Assembly: GCA_964017185.1 (NCBI GenBank)
Contig: OZ024869.1
Coordinates: 56,880,761 to 56,944,760 of the forward strand
Source of the DNA: Rugalucina vietnamica
Taxonomy: Eukaryota; Mollusca; Bivalvia; Lucinida; Lucinidae
Reading direction: 5' to 3'
DNA: 64,000 bases
The stretch's first letter is position 1. Each line of letters starts with the position of its first letter. This document shows positions 16 through 49,083 of this stretch, in pieces. Made by a program: the position numbers and the translations under genes. The notes below the pieces were generated by a model that worked only from the letters and a program-made list of their open reading frames with translations, was not told the DNA's origin and searched no databases.

Positions 16-306
16 GAATTAGTGTCTGGGGACCTGTCAAATGACAAATATCATCTGCTAAGCTGGCTATGCAGTGAATGCAATGACCCACAATGTAACA
101 ACTCGAATCAACAAAACACATGCTCTTCAATATCCAATACCGTACAGCTTCAAGAAAATGTCCCTGGCAACATAACAACTAATAATATTACAAACAGCAC
201 ACCTTCTGAATCCTCAAACACAAGTCGCGATACAAATGAACACATAGCGTGTAGAAACCATGACGACGGCAATATAACAACTGTGTCACAAGATTTTCTA
301 AAGTGA
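16..306 (+). CDS. LINE N-terminal segment: PHD-finger remnant and Ser/Asn/Thr-rich linker (partial)
   Basis: This frame is open from codon 16 to the TGA at 304-306; a TAG at 13-15 closes it on the left, so no true start is visible. Near its beginning it reads S-W-L-C-S-E-C-N, the W-x-C-x-x-C ending typical of a PHD finger. A low-complexity Asn/Ser/Thr-rich linker follows. In many mollusc and insect LINEs of this type a PHD finger precedes the endonuclease in the same polyprotein. Here the endonuclease frame opens at 302, in another register and overlapping this stop by a few bases. Either the element uses two overlapping frames or a single-base mutation split one ORF. The upstream stop at 13-15 favours some decay. 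Confidence 0.55.
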   Translation, partial: ELVSGDLSNDKYHLLSWLCSECNDPQCNNSNQQNTCSSISNTVQLQENVPGNITTNNITNSTPSESSNTSRDTNEHIACRNHDDGNITTVSQDFLK

Positions 307-3190
307 GTTCAAATTTAGTCGTAGGGGCGTCCATATAGCAAACTTTAACATCCGTCACCTAAAACCTAAACTTGATCAAGTAAAAATTATGCTACAAGGA
401 TCTGCTGTTGATATTTTCGGCGTTTGTGAAACATTTTTGAACAAAGCAATAAATGATGAAACACTTCATGTTAATGGATATACACACGAACGAAAAGATA
501 GAGAAGATTGTTCAGAAATTTCATCCAATAATGGCGGGGGGATTCTTATTTATTTAAGAGAGGGACTTGACTATGTTAGAAGAAACGACATTGAAACGTC
601 GGACGTAGAATCTATTTGGATTGAAGTCAAAATAAGACAATCAAATTCCTTCTTAGTATGTTCGGCCTATCGTCCACCTTCATCTCCAACAGAATGGACA
701 GATAAATTTTCAAGACAGATCGAAAAATCACTTACTTTCACCGATGAAATTTATCTCATGGGTGACTTCAATATAGATATAAAAGATGAACAATTATGCA
801 ACACTAAATGGAAACATGCAATGGAAATTAATGACTTAAAACAACTTATCAAAGAACCAACGCGAATCACAGCAAATTCCTCAACAATCATAGACCATCT
901 TTATGCATCCAAACCTGATCTAGTTGTTGATTTATCGGTACCTAATATTGCAGTTAGTGACCATTTTCCTATACAATTTACACGTGTTACCGGAAAATGT
1001 AACATTAAACGAAATATGCATACAACGATACAATACCGGTCATATAAGGCTTTCAACGAAGAACATTTTCTCTCAGATATGACAGACACTATGACAAATA
1101 TCAATATTTCTCCTGTGGACTCGGATCAAAATTTTGAAACCTTTATCCAAACCTTTATGACCGTTTTTGACAAGCATGCCCCAATCAAGACAAAGCGGGT
1201 GAAAAAAGAATCTCAACCAGACTGGTATAACGAGGATATCAAATTTGCTAGTAAACAGAGAGATATGTACCATAAGTCACGAAACTGGCCTCAGTACAAA
1301 TATTGGCGAAATAAAACCATACAGTTGATACGTACTTCAAAGAAAGTTTTTTTTGCAAAGTCAATTGCCGAAAATAAAGACAATACATATTTATGGAAAC
1401 ATATAAAAGACATAAATGGTAAATCAAAAGAAAATAAGCTTCCCGATGAACTGACAGTAAACGGAAATTCTACGACTGATCCACACATTATTTCAGAATG
1501 CATGAATACCTTCTTTTCAACAATAAGTGATAAACTTAAGACTGAAAACCCACAAGACAATCCACAGTTTGAGACAAGTACTCTTGATAATTACATAAAA
1601 ACTAAAATACCAAATACAGTCCAGTTTGGCATCCCTCTCATGAAAATGACCAATCTCATAGCATCTTTGAAGTCGCTTGATGTAACAAAAGCTACGGGTC
1701 TCGATGGTATTACTCCTAGAATTTTGAAGACATCAGCCGAAACAGTAGCACCAACTCTGTTAGAAATAATAAATTTAAGCCTGATCAATGGCCAATTCCC
1801 GGAATCACTTAAACTTGCTAAAATCAAACCGATTCATAAAGGAGGTACAAAATCGGACCCTTCAAATTATCGCCCTATCTCAGTTCTCCCAGTAATATCT
1901 AAAATAGTTGAAAAACATGTTACAAAGCACCTGTTCGCCTATCTAAAAAAGTATGACATCCTACACAAGTCTCAGTCAGGGTTTAGAAAAAATCATTCTT
2001 GCAATACTGCATTACTAGGCTTATTAGACAAATGGCTGAAAAATATTGAAAAAGGAGAACTCACAGGCGCAGTTTTCTTTGACCTAAGAAAAGCATTTGA
2101 TGTTGTTGACCATGAAATTTTACTAAAGAAACTTAAGTCCCACAAATTTGACAATCGCACTATGGAATGGATGACATCGTACCTGACAAATAGAAGACAA
2201 TGCATTGTAGATAAAACAGCAACCTCTTCTTTCCAGCAAGTTACGTCTGGTGTGCCACAGGGCTCTGTACTCGGCCCTGTGCTCTTTCTTATTTTCATTA
2301 ATGACATGCCTTTATACATCAATGAGGCATATGCCGAAATCTATGCGGATGATACAACTGCCCATACAGCTCATAAAGATCAAAATGTTGTTCAAGTAAA
2401 ACTCCAGGGTAGTTCAACTGATTTCAAATTTTGGTGCATTGTACACAAAATGTTTGTAAACTTAACCAAAACATCTTCTATGTCTATAGGAAGTAGGCAA
2501 AATTTATCCAATTATGATGAATTAAATATTACAATTGATAATGAAGATATCTCAAACGTTGACAACCAAAAACTGCTGGGGATAATCATCGATAAAACGC
2601 TCTCCTGGGATAAACAAATCGACTCTGTTTGTCTTAATATCACAAGACGAATAACTCTTTTAAAACTACTATCCAAATATGTGGACATGTCCAGTCTTAA
2701 ACTTTACTATAACTCCTATATTCTACCTATCTTTGACTACGGCTGCATGATTTGGGGACAGTGTTCAACATACAATATCAACAGAGTGCTAAAGTTACAG
2801 AAACGAGCAGCGCGAATTATTCTTCAAGCAGACTTCATGACACCATCAAAAGAAATGTTCCGAGAGCTAGGCTGGCTTACATTTACTAACAGAGTGGAAT
2901 ATCATATTTGCATTATGGCTTTTAAGTCTCTTAATGGCCAAGCCCCTGAGTATTTATCAAGCCTTCTTACGAAATCTTCTGAAACAAACACTAGAAATTT
3001 ACGTTCTAGTGAACAGGAAATTCTGAAAGTTCCATTTGCACGAACGGCATATTATAAAAAATCTTTTTCTGTCACGGGTCCAAAACTATGGAATGCTTTG
3101 CCACTAGAAATTAGAAAATCAACAAGTCTTGCCACTTTAAAAACGTCTGTAAAGAAATACTATCTAAATAAACAACTTAACGAGACATAG
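302..3190 (+). CDS. LINE polyprotein: APE-type endonuclease plus reverse transcriptase
   Basis: An uninterrupted frame runs from 302 to the TAG at 3188-3190; the first ATG is at 389 (933 aa). Starting at 389 would remove the first endonuclease motif (F-N-I-R-H-L, about 344-361), so translation probably begins upstream. Numbered from the ATG, the endonuclease shows the catalytic Glu in C-E-T-F-L (14), G-D-F-N (125-128), I-D-H (168-170) and S-D-H (190-192). The reverse transcriptase shows the K-A-T-G-L-D-G entry motif (about 434-440), F-F-D-L-R-K-A-F-D with Asp565, G-V-P-Q-G-S (621-626) and the catalytic Y-A-D-D (652-655). The C-terminus carries the 'LWNALP' block usual in this group. All visible catalytic residues are intact, so this copy is young or recently active. 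Its role is target-primed reverse transcription of its own RNA. Confidence 0.93.
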   Translation, partial: SEFKFSRRGVHIANFNIRHLKPKLDQVKIMLQGSAVDIFGVCETFLNKAINDETLHVNGYTHERKDREDCSEISSNNGGGILIYLREGLDYVRRNDIETSDVESIWIEVKIRQSNSFLVCSAYRPPSSPTEWTDKFSRQIEKSLTFTDEIYLMGDFNIDIKDEQLCNTKWKHAMEINDLKQLIKEPTRITANSSTIIDHLYASKPDLVVDLSVPNIAVSDHFPIQFTRVTGKCNIKRNMHTTIQYRSYKAFNEEHFLSDMTDTMTNINISPVDSDQNFETFIQTFMTVFDKHAPIKTKRVKKESQPDWYNEDIKFASKQRDMYHKSRNWPQYKYWRNKTIQLIRTSKKVFFAKSIAENKDNTYLWKHIKDINGKSKENKLPDELTVNGNSTTDPHIISECMNTFFSTISDKLKTENPQDNPQFETSTLDNYIKTKIPNTVQFGIPLMKMTNLIASLKSLDVTKATGLDGITPRILKTSAETVAPTLLEIINLSLINGQFPESLKLAKIKPIHKGGTKSDPSNYRPISVLPVISKIVEKHVTKHLFAYLKKYDILHKSQSGFRKNHSCNTALLGLLDKWLKNIEKGELTGAVFFDLRKAFDVVDHEILLKKLKSHKFDNRTMEWMTSYLTNRRQCIVDKTATSSFQQVTSGVPQGSVLGPVLFLIFINDMPLYINEAYAEIYADDTTAHTAHKDQNVVQVKLQGSSTDFKFWCIVHKMFVNLTKTSSMSIGSRQNLSNYDELNITIDNEDISNVDNQKLLGIIIDKTLSWDKQIDSVCLNITRRITLLKLLSKYVDMSSLKLYYNSYILPIFDYGCMIWGQCSTYNINRVLKLQKRAARIILQADFMTPSKEMFRELGWLTFTNRVEYHICIMAFKSLNGQAPEYLSSLLTKSSETNTRNLRSSEQEILKVPFARTAYYKKSFSVTGPKLWNALPLEIRKSTSLATLKTSVKKYYLNKQLNET

Positions 3191-8594: not shown

Positions 8595-8600
8595 ATAATA

Positions 8601-9398
8601 AAGAATAATAAGGCTGTAGGTTTCGATAGCATATCGAATGAAATGCTGAAAACAGGTTGTGGTGCATTACAAAAGAGTTTATTAAAGCTTTTTAATTGTA
8701 TACTTTGCTTTGGTGATTATCCAACTGAATGGAAATGTGCATACATTACACCTGTGCATAAGGGTGGCTCTCCCGGTGATCCAAATAATTACAGAGGTAT
8801 TTCAATACTTTCTTGCATAGCTAAATTATTTAATACAATTTTAACTAAACGACTAAACAATTTCCTTGAAGAGAAAAAGATAATAACTCCTCTTCAAATA
8901 GGGTTTATTAAGAAAGCGCGTACTTCGGATCACATGTTTGTATTACGAACAATCATTGAAAAATATACCCATGAAAAGAAAGGAAAATTATATACGTGTT
9001 TCATTGATTTTCACAAAGCGTTTGATAGGGTTATTCATGCTTTAATGTTATACAAGTTAAGAAATGTGGGTGTAACAGGTAATTTTTATAATGTTATCAA
9101 AGATATGTATGTTAATAACAAGTTGTGTGTTAAAATGAAGTCAGGTTTTACTCAGCTGTTCCCTTCAACAATTGGCGTTCGTCAAGGGGACACGTTGAGT
9201 CCTGACCTATTTAAGATATTTATAAATGATTTACCTGACATATTTGACACCTCATGTGATGGAATTGACATAGGAATGCTTCATTTCAATTGTTTGTTGT
9301 ATGCTGATGATGTAATTTTGTTATCTACAACCGAAGCAGGTTTGCAGAATTGTATCAGCAAACTTGAAAGTACTGCGATGATTAGTGCATTGAAGTAA
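8601..9398 (+). pseudogene. Reverse transcriptase fragment of the truncated LINE
   Basis: The frame starts at 8601 (K-N-N-K-A-V-G-F-D, the first conserved RT block) and has an internal ATG at 8643. Numbered from that Met: P-V-H-K-G-G (37-42), N-Y-R-G-I-S (49-54), F-I-D-F-H-K-A-F-D (120-128), G-V-R-Q-G-D (178-183) and Y-A-D-D (220-223). It stops at 9396-9398. A frameshift at about 9370 and a TGG-to-TAG change are evident: in the next register the sequence reads Y-C-D-D-stop-C-I-E-V-N-L-V-K-S-K-V, the expected continuation. The catalytic core survives, but the protein is broken. It was 5'-truncated at insertion, so it was never an independent gene here. Confidence 0.88.
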
Positions 9399-33620: not shown

Positions 33621-34069
33621 AAAACAAATTTGGACTTAAAGCATTTTTCAATCAGATTCAAAGACATGCCTAGACAAACCTATTACACGAGTCTGCACCT
33701 AAAATACGACACTGCTGCCTTTCCCTCCTGTAAGGTGGCGTCATACCTAGCCGATTTTGACACACGATGGTCACACGAATATGAAATTTTCAATTTCGCG
33801 CGATTTTCTTCACGAATTTGGTAAAAAGCCAATATTGAGCCGACGCATACACGAAGCCTGCCGATTGCAACACGATGAACACACGATGGACACACGAATA
33901 GCTCACGATTATACCCGAAGGACTCGCGAAGATAGAGGAACTGGCAGTTTTGCATACGATGTTGTTGCGAATGATACACGAAGGCCTCACGATGGTTTCA
34001 CGATGGCCTGACGACATCGTGTTAAGTGTTAAATGTATTCCCGATTGTGTCCTGAAGGCATCACGTGAA

Positions 34070-35085
34070 TCAGGAATTTATTATCGGTTAATATTCATTT
34101 TCTTATAAATGTTTAATATGTTTGGCCCCATTTAGATAATATTAGTCTTTGTATCGACAACCCTGTTGAAAGTTGCAAAATTTCAGTAATTCTCTTTGGC
34201 TCCATGTTGCCATACCTTAAGCGTCACTGACGAGACTTTAACAGTCGAAACCGCGGCATGGCCAATCCCCTTTCTCATTAATGTGCTAGCTGCTCTTAAA
34301 GGATCTCAAGTTTTAATCTTTATTTATGGGTTGGAGCCAAGGCTTGGAGTCTTGGAGTGGTCTTAGGCTGCCGTATTGGAGTGGATTCTTGAAGTGGAAC
34401 CCTGGAGGGAATGTTGCGAGTGGCACAGGAACTACTTTTTTTTTTTTAATACAAAGAAACTTTCCGATATGGGTGATAATTTCAATCATAGCCATTTCAA
34501 TCATAGCCATACCATGATCAAACAGATTATCTAAGATAAGGATCTACCAAAATGTACATGAATGATGTGCTAAGACATTAACAGTCATCTCCAAAATAAC
34601 GTTTTATCTGTTTGGTTTTGATATAGTTATCTGCTCAACTCCGCAGTTCCACTGCAGTCCATGTCTCCATAAAATACACGGTACCTACATATACTGTGGG
34701 CTGGTGGTTGAACGAGCCCCAGTCTCATTTGCGTGCAAACATGGTTTCTTTTGAGAAAGCATTTTTGTATGCTTTCGTTGTTGACGTCCATTATAGTAAT
34801 AAGTTAATTAATATCAGTAACTTTACAACACTGTTCAAGCTTCATGGTGACAGTTTTCTAGTACTTTAAATCCATCTTTCACATGAAACTGGCACAAAAC
34901 TGTTCTTGTTTAAACGCTCGTTTGTCGAACTCTGCAATGGGTTTGTCTGTTAGAAGAAAAACGGGCGCTGCTTTAAAGACAGAGTAATGAACAAGCCAAA
35001 TACATGTACCTGTAAAAGATGATGTTGCTCCTGCAGGAGTTTTTTTTTTGTCATGCACCAGCTTGATGTATAGCAGCAGTGCTAT
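34070..35085. other. Interior of element B, unassigned
   Basis: No gene is supported. Short frames on both strands at 34313-34517 overlap one another and carry no domain. Confidence 0.45.
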
Positions 35086-35089
35086 CGGG

Positions 35090-35577
35090 ATGTTTATCAT
35101 GATTTATTTGTTTGTTCTTGATGATTCATTGACTAGTTAGAGATTCACCACGAGGACCGAAGAACTAACTATTAAATGTTATGAACCACTACAGAAGCTG
35201 AGGGTGAGGTTAGGCGCCTGTAAAACCGGGTTAAGCCCGCCAGTAACTTTGTGTTACTGATCGTTCCAAGGCGATACTTCTGTGGTGGTTCTTTTTGTTT
35301 TATGTCTTGGTGTTTAATTTTTTTTGTGCTGTTGGCGCCTTATGTGTGTCTTCATAGTTTTAGTTAAGTTAAGGTAACTGAATGGCCACCTATTGGGAAA
35401 ATAGCTGCTCATTCGGCTTACGATATGTTTCATGGTATAAGTACCTGATTGTTAGTTTGGTTTTTTCACACCTCGGTTTTTGGAGTAGGAATCTTTTTCT
35501 GATTGCGCCTTTTCCTGGTCTTTGCCTACTTGTACCTTCTTTTTCCTATTTTTTTTTTTCATCGAAATACGCCATGA
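35090..35577 (+). repeat. R1 dispersed repeat copy inside element B
   Basis: It starts at TTATCATGATTTATTTGTTT and runs through CATTGACTAGTTAGAGATTC and CAGAAGCTGAGGGTGAGGTT to TACGCCATG. This is the same landmark order as 23290-23827. Confidence 0.8.
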
Positions 35578-35686
35578 TTTAAAAGTATTCCACTTGAGGC
35601 TTCTGAGAAAATGTTGTGTGGGTGCTAATTGTTTTTGTTTTGTATGTCCACGTTATCCGGGGAAGTATTATAACAGTTTTGGTTAA

Positions 35687-36469
35687 AGCCCGTCTCACAC
35701 AGAACACACGGTTTACACGTTTGGCCACCCGTGTAAACCGTACATACAACCGAATAAACCGTGGCCTTATCCGACTTACACTCGGGCCATTTGAGTGTAT
35801 CCGTGTAAGCCGTGTATGATTTTTAAAACTTTTAAAAAAACTGGCACGGGTGCGATGTCCGTGTATAATCGTATAAGCGACCGTACAAGACCGTGAGAGA
35901 CCGTGTGAGCCCGTACGAGACCGTATATACAACCGTACATGCCAAAATTCAGCCAAAATTATCTCAATGTTTATCAGTGTTATCATGATTTCTAATTCTC
36001 TAATTCTGTCATCTGCCATTTTGTAAAAATGCTCCACTGAAAGTTCGAAAATTTATGAAGTCAAGCCATCAAAACGAGTCAATTTATATCAAACCATACA
36101 CGAATGTCTGATAATTCGAGCATAACTTGAACAAAACTCGATGGGACCGTATATAGACCCTGTAAATGTCCAGTAAATCGTGTAAACGTCGTGTTTAATC
36201 GTACTAGGCCGTAACAGACCGAACTAGACCGTACTTGGAACCGTAAAACAATCGTATGAAAATCGTTTGCAAATCGTGTTCAAACCGTGACAAACATTGC
36301 TTGATCGAGTATATCCGTGCTTTGTTCGTACTCACATTTGCTACATTCGAGTATAAATCGTACCAACTCAGGCACGGTTGGAGCTCAATACTCGTACCAG
36401 TCAATACGTGTATAACCGAGTAAACCGTATTGGAACCGTGTGCCCAACCGTGTTCTGTGTGAGACGGCC
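35687..36469. mobile_element. 783-bp TIR element C with YCGT motifs at 10-11 bp spacing, TTAA duplication
   Basis: The left end is AGCCCGTCTCACACAGAACA and the right end is its inverse (TGTTCTGTGTGAGACGGCC), with TTAA at 35683-35686 and 36470-36473. TTAA suggests piggyBac-type mobilisation. CCGT/TCGT occurs at 35859, 35869, 35881, 35891, 35901, 35911, 35921 and 35933, and again at 36178, 36189, 36199, 36209, 36229, 36241, 36252, 36263, 36274 and 36285, with CCGA at 36219. It sits inside element B. The 152-codon minus-strand frame across it is a by-product of the repeat. Confidence 0.85.
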
Positions 36470-37525
36470 TTAATATCGTGTTTCCATCTTAGTGCCATCG
36501 TGTTCTAGATTTTTCAAATACGATGCTTATACGATGGCGCTGCGAAGGCCACCCGATGTCGTGTTGCCTTCGTTACACTATCGGGCAGCATCGTGTGTCC
36601 CTCGTAGTGCCATCGTGTAGCAAAACCTAGCCGATGGTGCCGATGACCACATGACACAAGTACGATGTAGTCCCGATGTGAGAAGATGGCCTCACGATGG
36701 CTTTACGATGGCCAAGATGTACTCGCGAACTCAACACGAAATTGAACCATCGTGTGTCCTTCCTGTATTTTTTTGGCATGTCAAAGAATTTGATGCCGCT
36801 CGCGATGGTACTGCCGAAGGCTTAAAAAATCTCCCGATGGACATACGATGGGTAACGATGCACTCACGAATAGCCCGATGTCTTCACGATCCCCGCCGAA
36901 TTTGAAAATTTTCATAATCGTGTGTCCATCGCGTGTTAACATCGGCTAGGTATGACGCCTACAGTACGGCCTGTCCACACTCGAACAGGAAAGCCCCCCC
37001 CCCCGGTCAGGAAAGGCACAGGCACATATTCAAGTAAACATTCCCTTATGAACAGTCAAAGGCACAACGATACAAGTAAGCGAACATTATGATGTGCAAC
37101 TAAAATAAATTGTTTTAAAGAAATAAATATGGTATCCTTAAAAGTAAAATATAAATAGGGCTTTTATTCAATCAAATACAAATACATGCCTAGACAACCC
37201 TTATACAAAGCAGTGTCAAATACACGACACTGCCACCGTTCCCTCCTATACGGCCATTCGATACACGAACAGGAAAGACAGCAACATCAATATCTCTAGC
37301 AAAGATTCAACCAAATATTACCTTATGAACAATCAAAGGCAGAACAATACAACAAACAAAAGCAAACATAAGGAAATTAAAACAAACGCCACAAATATAG
37401 ACAACACACAAACACGGGCCTGTGTTATGGAGTCTCACTTCGAGTTACACACAATAGTCCGGCAGAACCTTCAGTGGACCTGGATTTGGAGTACATAGAA
37501 AATGTTTTTACATATTTGGAAATAA

Positions 37526-47800: not shown

Positions 47801-48060
47801 AAACAAAACAAACTGACATCTATTCCAGACTAAGATCGGCCTGGGCATCTCTCTTCTTGTACAGTATAAGCACTGTCTTCATTGAAACAGCTTTCGTCAC
47901 TCGATAACTATTGTGCAATATAACGAAGAGTTATGGTTCCTGCTGGATGCATGCCTGGGTGACGGATAGGCGAATTTTTTCATGATACAGCACACTTGAT
48001 ACTCTTTAACATTTACAATTTGTGGTTTAAAGCAGTGCTTACAGTTGGAGAAAGGGTAAC
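44900..48060. other. Unassigned sequence upstream of the lectin gene
   Basis: No gene is supported. At 47031-47140 the phrase CTATCGCAATGAT is repeated at about 60-70 bp spacing (three times). The lectin promoter should lie at the right end. AGTATAAGC at about 47866 is the only weak TATA-like string noticed. Confidence 0.45.
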
Positions 48061-48099
48061 TGGGAGACGTTGTTTTATCAAACACACACACATAAAAAA

Positions 48100-49083
48100 A
48101 TGACAACTAAAATGGCAAAGATTAGTCTTATTCTGTTAACGGTGTTTACATTTATTGTCTGTGCGTATCAAGCTCGGCGAATCGACCTAGGACGTCTTAA
48201 CATTGAAGTACATAAATTATATAGGAAAACGGATGTTTTACAAACAGAGATCGATGATATTTGGGAAATTATTCTGACATCAGGCATATCTATGCAGAAC
48301 TACGAAAACAAAACGGCAACTGGTGTTTTAGGCCCACTAACAGAAGAAAATATGGCACTGAAGCATCGTTTAGAGACATTGGATTATGAACTTGCTGGTG
48401 TAAATAAATCGTGTAAAGAGTCTCTACAAATTATCACCAACGTACTCAATGAGGAAAAGAGCAAAGCTGAAAACGAGCATGAAGCACAAAGAGCTATAAA
48501 TGTGCATGTAAACAAAACTCTTGGTGACCTCATTGCAAAGCAATCTAAACTTGAAAAGGAAAATGAGGCACTGAAGCATTCTATATTTGAAATTGAAACT
48601 CGCGATGCGAAATTGAAAATTGAACTCGCACAATGGCAAGCCGTAATTTCATCACTGACAGAAACAACAACAGTAGCAACACAAGCCCCTTATATATGCG
48701 AGGAAGGTTGGAAGAGCTTTGATGGTCATTGTTATCTGAGGGTATTAGAGGAGGAAAGCTGGGACAATGCTTCAGCATTCTGTGAGTCCAGGGGTAGTTA
48801 TTTACTGGAGATCACATCGGACGCTGAGCTAGAGTATGTCGGTGAGCTAATGAGAATCATACTGGATAAGTTCTGGATAGGAGCTACAGACAGGGAAACT
48901 GAGGGGGTCTATGTCTACCAGCACAGTAAACAGCGGGTACCGGACAAATACTGGAGCAGTACTGAGCCAGATAACTACAATGGCGCACAACACTGCGCCG
49001 CCATGCACTCACACTACGGGACTCTCCGACTGTATGATAACGGCTGTAGTTGGAAAAGGTATTTTGTCTGTGAGGTTCCATAG
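48100..49083 (+). CDS. Secreted coiled-coil C-type lectin (327 aa)
   Basis: The ATG at 48100 has A at -3; a second in-frame ATG at 48112 (A at -3, G at +4) is also plausible. Residues 1-25 are a signal peptide ending A-Y-Q-A. Residues about 35-185 are charged heptad-rich coiled coil, likely for oligomerisation, with N-glycosylation sites at 70, 102 and 138. An in-frame near-repeat E-E-N-M-A-L-K-H (82-89) and K-E-N-E-A-L-K-H (153-160) lies 71 codons apart. A Thr-rich hinge leads to a C-type lectin domain (about 198-326) with Cys200, 211, 228, 299, 316 and 324, the W-I-G-A core (259-262) and E-P-D-N (289-292). The usual E-D-C before the fifth strand is Q-H-C, and W-N-D is replaced by L-Y-D-N, so calcium and sugar binding may be altered. 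Such lectins bind microbial or self glycans outside the cell. The coding part has no intron, unusual for this family; a retrocopy is possible. Confidence 0.93.
   Translation: MTTKMAKISLILLTVFTFIVCAYQARRIDLGRLNIEVHKLYRKTDVLQTEIDDIWEIILTSGISMQNYENKTATGVLGPLTEENMALKHRLETLDYELAGVNKSCKESLQIITNVLNEEKSKAENEHEAQRAINVHVNKTLGDLIAKQSKLEKENEALKHSIFEIETRDAKLKIELAQWQAVISSLTETTTVATQAPYICEEGWKSFDGHCYLRVLEEESWDNASAFCESRGSYLLEITSDAELEYVGELMRIILDKFWIGATDRETEGVYVYQHSKQRVPDKYWSSTEPDNYNGAQHCAAMHSHYGTLRLYDNGCSWKRYFVCEVP

Follow-up and report, generated by a model that had tools for sequence, protein, structure and literature searches.

The 64,000-nucleotide stretch of the Rugalucina vietnamica genome analysed here (contig OZ024869.1, positions 56,880,761 to 56,944,760; hereafter the window) contains, at 33733-36963, an element called C, a non-coding jumping DNA element that has probably been active recently. 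C is a complete terminal inverted repeat (TIR) element with the layout GTA - AGGT GGCGTCATACCTAGCCGAT ... ATCGGCTAGGTATGACGCC TACA - GTA, and its TIR consists of a perfect 19 bp inside a 54-bp inverted repeat of 89% identity. A diverged paralogue of the flank, about 280 bp downstream, presents the empty site: CTCCT-ATA-CGGCC near 37243-37255 versus CTCCT-GTA-element-GTA-CGGCC. Inside the TIRs lie array-bearing ends, about 300 bp long on the left and 490 bp on the right, composed of degenerate, CpG-centred units of about 8 bp (ACACGATG / CATCGTGT). The limits, the TIR and the GTA on both sides had been placed correctly by the original prediction, and each of the 15 left-arm and 6 right-arm CGA trinucleotides that it listed is present at its coordinate; both arms contain further CGAs, and the right arm also has many CATCG units in reverse orientation. 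The parts of the element are:

33730..33732, no strand: left target-site duplication GTA (the family norm is TTA/TAA)
33733..33755, plus strand: left TIR, AGGT + GGCGTCATACCTAGCCGAT (342 + 337 exact 19-mers genome-wide)
33765..34024, plus strand: left subterminal array, CGA units of the ACACGATG type at about 10.7 bp spacing (CGA period 10.68, n=20, z 10.3; lag test 30/30)
34025..35683, no strand: core with few CpG and without significant phasing here, diverged or lost between subfamilies; coding capacity was not found
35687..36470, plus strand: nested 784-bp element B, which carries a separate array made of CGT units (ACCGTGTA type) and is flanked by TAA (35684-35686, 36471-36473)
36474..36940, minus strand: right subterminal array, CATCG runs alternating with CGATG runs (inward TCG period 10.77, n=21, z 13.7; lag test 30/30)
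36941..36963, minus strand: right TIR, ATCGGCTAGGTATGACGCC + TACA
36964..36966, no strand: right target-site duplication GTA

The two C arms and the nested B have the strongest CpG periodicities of the window, judged by 500 dinucleotide shuffles per region. The best periods are 10.60 for the CpGs of the unsplit left arm (z 8.6), about 10.16-10.17 for those of the right arm with both orientations pooled (z 7.7) and 10.92 for B (z 9.9), each reached in 0/500 shuffles; in the core (34031-35685) the periodicity is not significant, with 139/500 shuffles reaching the observed value. When the units are separated by orientation, the left-arm CGA period has a wide bootstrap interval (5-95%: 10.46-11.88), that of the right-arm TCG read inward spans 10.11-10.80, and the right-arm CGAs have a period of 10.55 (n=14, z 6.6). 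With the period set to exactly 11.0 bp, z drops to 1.3 for the left CGAs, 0.8 for the right inward TCGs and 2.0 for the right CGAs, indicating that the arms are something other than a plain 11-bp tandem repeat. Such a simple repeat was rejected, as there is no coherent 11.0-bp period and Tandem Repeats Finder reports only short stretches of the arms, of 1.9-4.7 units.

Across the searched genome (1.09 Gb, 47 contigs), the 19-bp TIR of C has 342 exact matches in forward and 337 in reverse orientation, while the reversed-pattern control has 0. Copies were defined as TIR sites pairing within about 6 kb and were chosen by eye among roughly the first hundred matches listed; the 33 regions fetched all carry exact TIRs at both ends by selection. 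Five of them (L013, L025, L026, L038 and L040) have three to five TIRs, nested or tandem: L013, L038 and L040 were excluded as composite before counting, leaving 30 copies including the one of the window, and L025 and L026 still contain an extra internal TIR among these 30. L021 and L022 share their flanks and are not independent insertions. Regular spacing was assessed in all copies with a lag test on CpG pairs 8-48 bp apart, which tolerates slips and counts as passed when the observed value is equalled in no more than 2 of 200 shuffles. The left arms pass in 30/30 copies, the right arms in 30/30 and B in 15/15; in two sets of control segments (500 bp, at least 8 CpG, at most 1/100 shuffles) 2/111 and 4/90 pass. 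Of the C cores, which include nested elements and array edges, 14/30 pass; the core of L010 has z 2.4. A few copies do less well in the single-period test, namely L034 (z 3.4) and L029 (best period 11.84) on the left and L025 (z 3.4) and L039 (best period 11.98) on the right. The predicted CpG spacing of about 10-11 bp is thus real and exceeds shuffled sequence in all 30 analysed copies of the TIR search.

The 3-bp flanks are identical in 26/30 copies (TTA 16, TAA 6, TAC 1, TCA 1, TGA 1 and GTA 1) and mismatched in four. C therefore has the TWA target duplication of PIF/Harbinger elements (22 of the 26 matching flanks are TTA or TAA), and the GTA of the window copy is an exception within its family. 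At least one C subfamily looks recently mobile, with seven young copies that are 0.2-1.7% divergent from their majority sequence; the value varies by region and by class of base. The C TIR has 0 matches in IMG/VR. Literature searches, which left most subscription papers outside, returned C TIR strings only where the titles concern other subjects, and the phrase '10-bp periodicity' was not among the matches listed.

The arms are also the better conserved parts of the element: they are similar between the window copy and other subfamilies, whereas the core diverges or is absent (in L020, the right arm is 89.5% identical to that of the window over 496 bp and the core 68% over 457 bp). About eight positions around the left-arm CpGs are kept better than the spacers in seven divergent copies: counted from the CG, the match to the window is 0.86-0.94 at -3, at -1 and from 0 to +4 (0.72 at -2), compared with 0.68-0.80 at the spacer positions -5, -4 and +5 to +7. 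For the right arm, the corresponding values are 0.970/0.995 at the CG and 0.84-0.95 at the surrounding positions. Pairwise differences at CpG exceed those at non-CpG positions in every left-arm divergence class except the most distant one, and are below them in all four right-arm classes.

The regularity is supported over a shorter range than had been proposed. The phase was said to hold even across a 30-bp gap, but when the blocks are offset at random, the observed value is reached in 1178/2000 randomisations for the left arm and in 69/2000 for the right arm; the latter result is marginal, with 54-235/2000 in five other copies. Units in opposite orientation have no common phase (R 0.06-0.29, versus 0.60-0.81 for same-orientation pairs). 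Because neither the offset randomisation nor the phase of opposite orientations supports a strict helical register over the whole arm, it was dropped, and the strict-helix reading is only partly supported. The firm result is one unit per turn within runs of the same orientation.

B had been described as a TTAA element, and the differences in TIR and target duplication between B and C had been taken to mean that the two share an architecture and not the ancestry of their ends. B has flanks of TTA or TAA with an additional terminal A: a search that admits only A or T at the four flank places, and would miss ends with G or C there, found 48 left ends (TTTA 19, TTAA 15, ATTA 8, ATAA 6), of which 33 differ from TTAA and all 48 are directly preceded by TTA (27) or TAA (21). 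At the right, 97 of the 100 ends listed (120 found) read TTA+A or TAA+A, and among 35 pairs formed from the end lists, 29 have identical 3-bp flanks (TTA 18, TAA 11) and 6 are mismatched. Forcing TTAA on the left gives apparent agreement, yet 4/15 right ends then read TTTA. A 4-bp TTAA duplication of the Kolobok/piggyBac type was consequently rejected for B, in favour of the 3-bp TTA/TAA that 29/35 pairs fit. The site of the B insertion in the window is empty in other C copies, for example in L010. B and C are thus both TWA elements of the PIF/Harbinger type: their TIRs and unit words do differ, but their duplications are both mainly TTA/TAA. The arrays are family-wide and those of B and C are not copies of one another (between one B copy and the C arms of the window, the best match is 12 bp, E 0.24), as proposed, but the argument for convergence from the target sites was wrong; with a shared target of PIF/Harbinger type, the common layout is most simply explained by related machinery. 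In L080, near position 1500, the right flank of a B copy continues as the left end of a C (TTAAGGTGGC), placing B at a C boundary.

A third family, E, is present at L005:2053-2813 and L081:2285-2833 with elements of about 760 bp, TTA/TAA flanks and units (ATCGTGGTGA / ACCGTAGC) spaced near 10.5 bp. Its ends have 451 forward and 449 reverse exact matches; among 27 pairs picked from the places listed, 18 have matching flanks (TTA or TAA in 17). In the one E copy tested, L005, the periodicity has z 9.7 (0/1000 shuffles); the copy in L081 was flagged by the scan. Whether other TIR families of the genome show the same spacing thus has a mixed answer, E doing so in this one copy and families D and F reaching only z 1.9 each. 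Family D (L014:325-1729 and L087-L089) has TGCCTAGGTCACACTAGC ends, with 101 + 101 exact matches to one end pattern, and a length of 1.4 kb; its TACGGATA units are rich in CpG and less strongly spaced, nearer 10 bp; its lags peak at 10, 20, 30-31 and 40, and its pitch may be shorter. The D insertion within L014 is flanked by TAA left and right, compared with an empty site in other C copies, and in 2/4 D copies one flank is TTA and the other TAA. An additional CpG-rich unit array (AACGTGAA / ACCGTAAC) at L084:1850-2250 is weakly phased (z 1.9). The spacing layout is therefore not general across families; it is common to at least three families of one target type (B, C and, by one copy, E). The array CpGs stand in CGTR or YACG context in 39/53 cases in B, 42/64 in E, 25/39 in F, 13/26 in the left and 18/40 in the right arm of C and 42/103 in D, where about 23% would be expected for random context with equal bases. 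This shared context hints that the binding domains may be related.

For C, the data directly support the element, its target duplication, its family, the unit spacing and the better conservation of the arms than of the core. The explanation that we prefer, and to which we give about half of our belief, is that C is a non-autonomous PIF/Harbinger-type transposon with dense arrays of putative binding sites in its subterminal regions, moved by proteins that are encoded elsewhere. The short TIR would serve the transposase, and each unit of about 8 bp would be bound by a small DNA-binding domain from one of the transposition proteins, which for PIF/Harbinger would most likely be a Myb/SANT protein of the ORF1 type. 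By loading head-to-tail at one unit per turn, many copies of this protein could mark and pair the ends. According to a passage of PMC4482050, PIF/Harbinger groups have TWA target-site duplications, and most of them code for two proteins, a DDE transposase and one of Myb/SANT type. Myb/SANT-type domains contact about 6-8 bases, as stated in part of PMC9921582, and units of about 8 bp repeated at 10.7 bp would suit a packed row of such domains. The same part of PMC9921582 considers that ORF1 and transposase might be recruited by internal sites, in the way that TnpA sites act in Spm, and doubts a sequence-specific role of internal sites in mPing itself. B and E differ from C in their units but share its target type and have similar spacing, so that they probably use machinery related to that of C. 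A bolder version, to which we give little weight, is that B, C and E form a clan with CpG-centred tracks at helix pitch that would each carry a protein filament, one subunit per turn and head-to-tail; the word would diverge with the pitch nearly fixed, and the track would give each family an end recognition of its own and protect its ends from methylation.

Several observations weigh against the preferred explanation. No transposase or Myb/SANT gene was found linked to C ends. At 30 DDE_Tnp_4 loci, fetched from 150 scored matches (of 415 candidates), there was no C TIR and no strongly periodic array within 1.5 kb, and tblastn of 39 open reading frames (ORFs) from the middle of these loci found no match in the 30 C copies. 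The right end of C begins with T (30/30 copies) rather than with the A or G that is usual as first base of PIF/Harbinger TIRs, which are mostly under 60 bp; the left end begins with A in 29/30 copies. In divergent subfamilies, the 26 left-arm CpGs of the window are retained in 105/127 cells on the grid and in 33/40 off it, which is no difference. This full count led us to drop the idea of selection on a CpG grid, with on-grid CpGs retained and off-grid ones lost, and it lowers the odds of both the binding-site and the filament explanation and raises those of slippage. The left-arm losses cluster, at 33844 (off grid, 0/7) and 33925 (near grid, 0/6) and at the on-grid CpGs 34001 and 34012, which are kept in just 1/7 and 0/5 divergent copies; several of these copies have inverted CATCGTG units 11 bp apart at the two latter places instead. 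All 40 CpGs of the right arm are kept in at least 4/5 aligned divergent copies and hence offer no on/off contrast. Lastly, L034 has matching TTA flanks with just 303 bp of right arm that align to that of the window, suggesting that the full array may be dispensable.

Further searches for an autonomous partner gave little. On contig C1, 17 DDE_Tnp_4 matches lie more than 100 kb from every exact TIR among the matches listed (a comparison by eye, on this one contig). L016 and L024, the longest two among the 30 C copies, have no Pfam match in their additional sequence, to Myb/SANT or otherwise; a genome search aimed at Myb/SANT was not made. The only B copy of 6 kb that was found (L090) was considered as an autonomous form and rejected, as it is a B interrupted by other sequence, in which no ORF exceeds 111 amino acids. 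L030 has an ORF of 313 amino acids without Pfam match that by eye resembles a reverse transcriptase. Elsewhere in the window, 302-3187 and 8595-9395 encode reverse transcriptases of the non-long-terminal-repeat type (RVT_1, the first also with Exo_endo_phos), and 48031-49083 is an ORF with a C-type lectin domain.

The arrays could instead act against silencing, their units binding a transposon or host protein that would keep the ends free of methylation, like VANC, with the central CpG as the pair that is protected or read. We consider this unlikely; it is compatible with the reading of the units as sites for transposition proteins. The arrays of every family seen are CpG-centred, as this role would suggest, and in the seven young C copies CpGs changed in 3/938 cells of the arms and in 10/579 of the core, where CpG transitions are raised (0.0138, versus 0.0058 at other C/G); however, the arms changed less than the core at the remaining base classes too, the counts are small, and selection on transposing lineages could explain the difference. 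VANC motif arrays expand, contract and differ among related families, as passages of PMC5735166 and PMC10398659 describe, but helix-pitch spacing is not described in the available part of PMC5735166, from which the words 'periodic' and 'spacing' are absent. It would also surprise us if the arms were a slippage relic, grown by local duplication of 10-11 bp units, with a spacing that is a functionless fossil: z collapses at exactly 11.0 bp, left-arm positions near the CG are better kept than spacers, B and E are similarly spaced with different units, and arms are retained between subfamilies whose core is lost. Left-arm indels of at least 5 bp are nevertheless often of unit length (10, 11, 22, 11, 32 and 11 bp, also 9, 18 and 14 bp; 27/30 copies aligned; the right arm has one only, of 7 bp, in 26/30 copies aligned), and the short 10-11 bp tandem stretches, the non-significant left-arm phase across blocks, the lack of a common phase between orientations and the similar retention of on-grid and off-grid CpGs all agree with slippage.

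Rotational positioning of nucleosomes, with once-per-turn CpG steps setting the wrapping of the ends on histones, is very improbable. The nucleosomal helical period is 10.2, and the best periods are 10.55-10.86 (C by orientation, CGT units of B), with lower z at 10.2; but the unsplit right arm peaks at 10.17, family D near 10.1 and the nine ACG sites of B at 9.79. The better-kept positions cover about 8 bp, more than a dinucleotide, and A/T dinucleotides around the array CGs peak at +2 and not half a turn away. What speaks for positioning is a period near the helical repeat, and a role of nucleosomes in mPing mobility is discussed in a part of PMC9921582.

Arrays of binding sites in transposon ends are already known. 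The novelty would be a dense end array near helical pitch, with different words across several families of one genome, and it would give direct access to the way in which PIF/Harbinger proteins select ends and bring them into pairs. The layout is also a natural test of whether spacing and not sequence is conserved, and of whether animal transposons deploy motif arrays against CpG methylation.

VANDAL elements are MULE elements of plants. Like C, the Arabidopsis VANDAL/VANC system has short motifs in dynamic non-coding arrays, with a motif that differs among related families; unlike C, its arrays are also found in introns, its motifs (YAGTATTAY, AGTTGTCC/AC) are not CpG-centred, and helical spacing is not described in the passages of PMC5735166 and PMC10398659 that cover them. 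The En/Spm (CACTA) elements resemble C in their multiple direct and inverted subterminal motifs, which are tied to methylation and bound by TnpA, an accessory protein thought to join the ends; these elements belong to a different superfamily, and spacing at helix pitch is absent from these descriptions (parts of PMC4219821 and PMC9921582). Galileo/Foldback elements likewise have repetitive long ends with additional sites for the (THAP) transposase, but the mapped sites number three, lying about 70, 561-577 and 701-718 bp inward of the end, in an element of the P superfamily (described in part of PMC3688188). Closest to C in type are mPing (Tourist-like) and MtPH, which are also non-coding, with a 3-bp TTA/TAA duplication, a short TIR and many similar copies. 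MtPH elements can have subterminal tandem repeats with a 60-bp unit, and their TIR, as given in a section of PMC2213677, is of a G(N)5GTT type that C does not share. What sets C apart from these non-autonomous PIF/Harbinger elements is the dense series of CpG-centred units, about 10.7 bp apart, in both of its arms.

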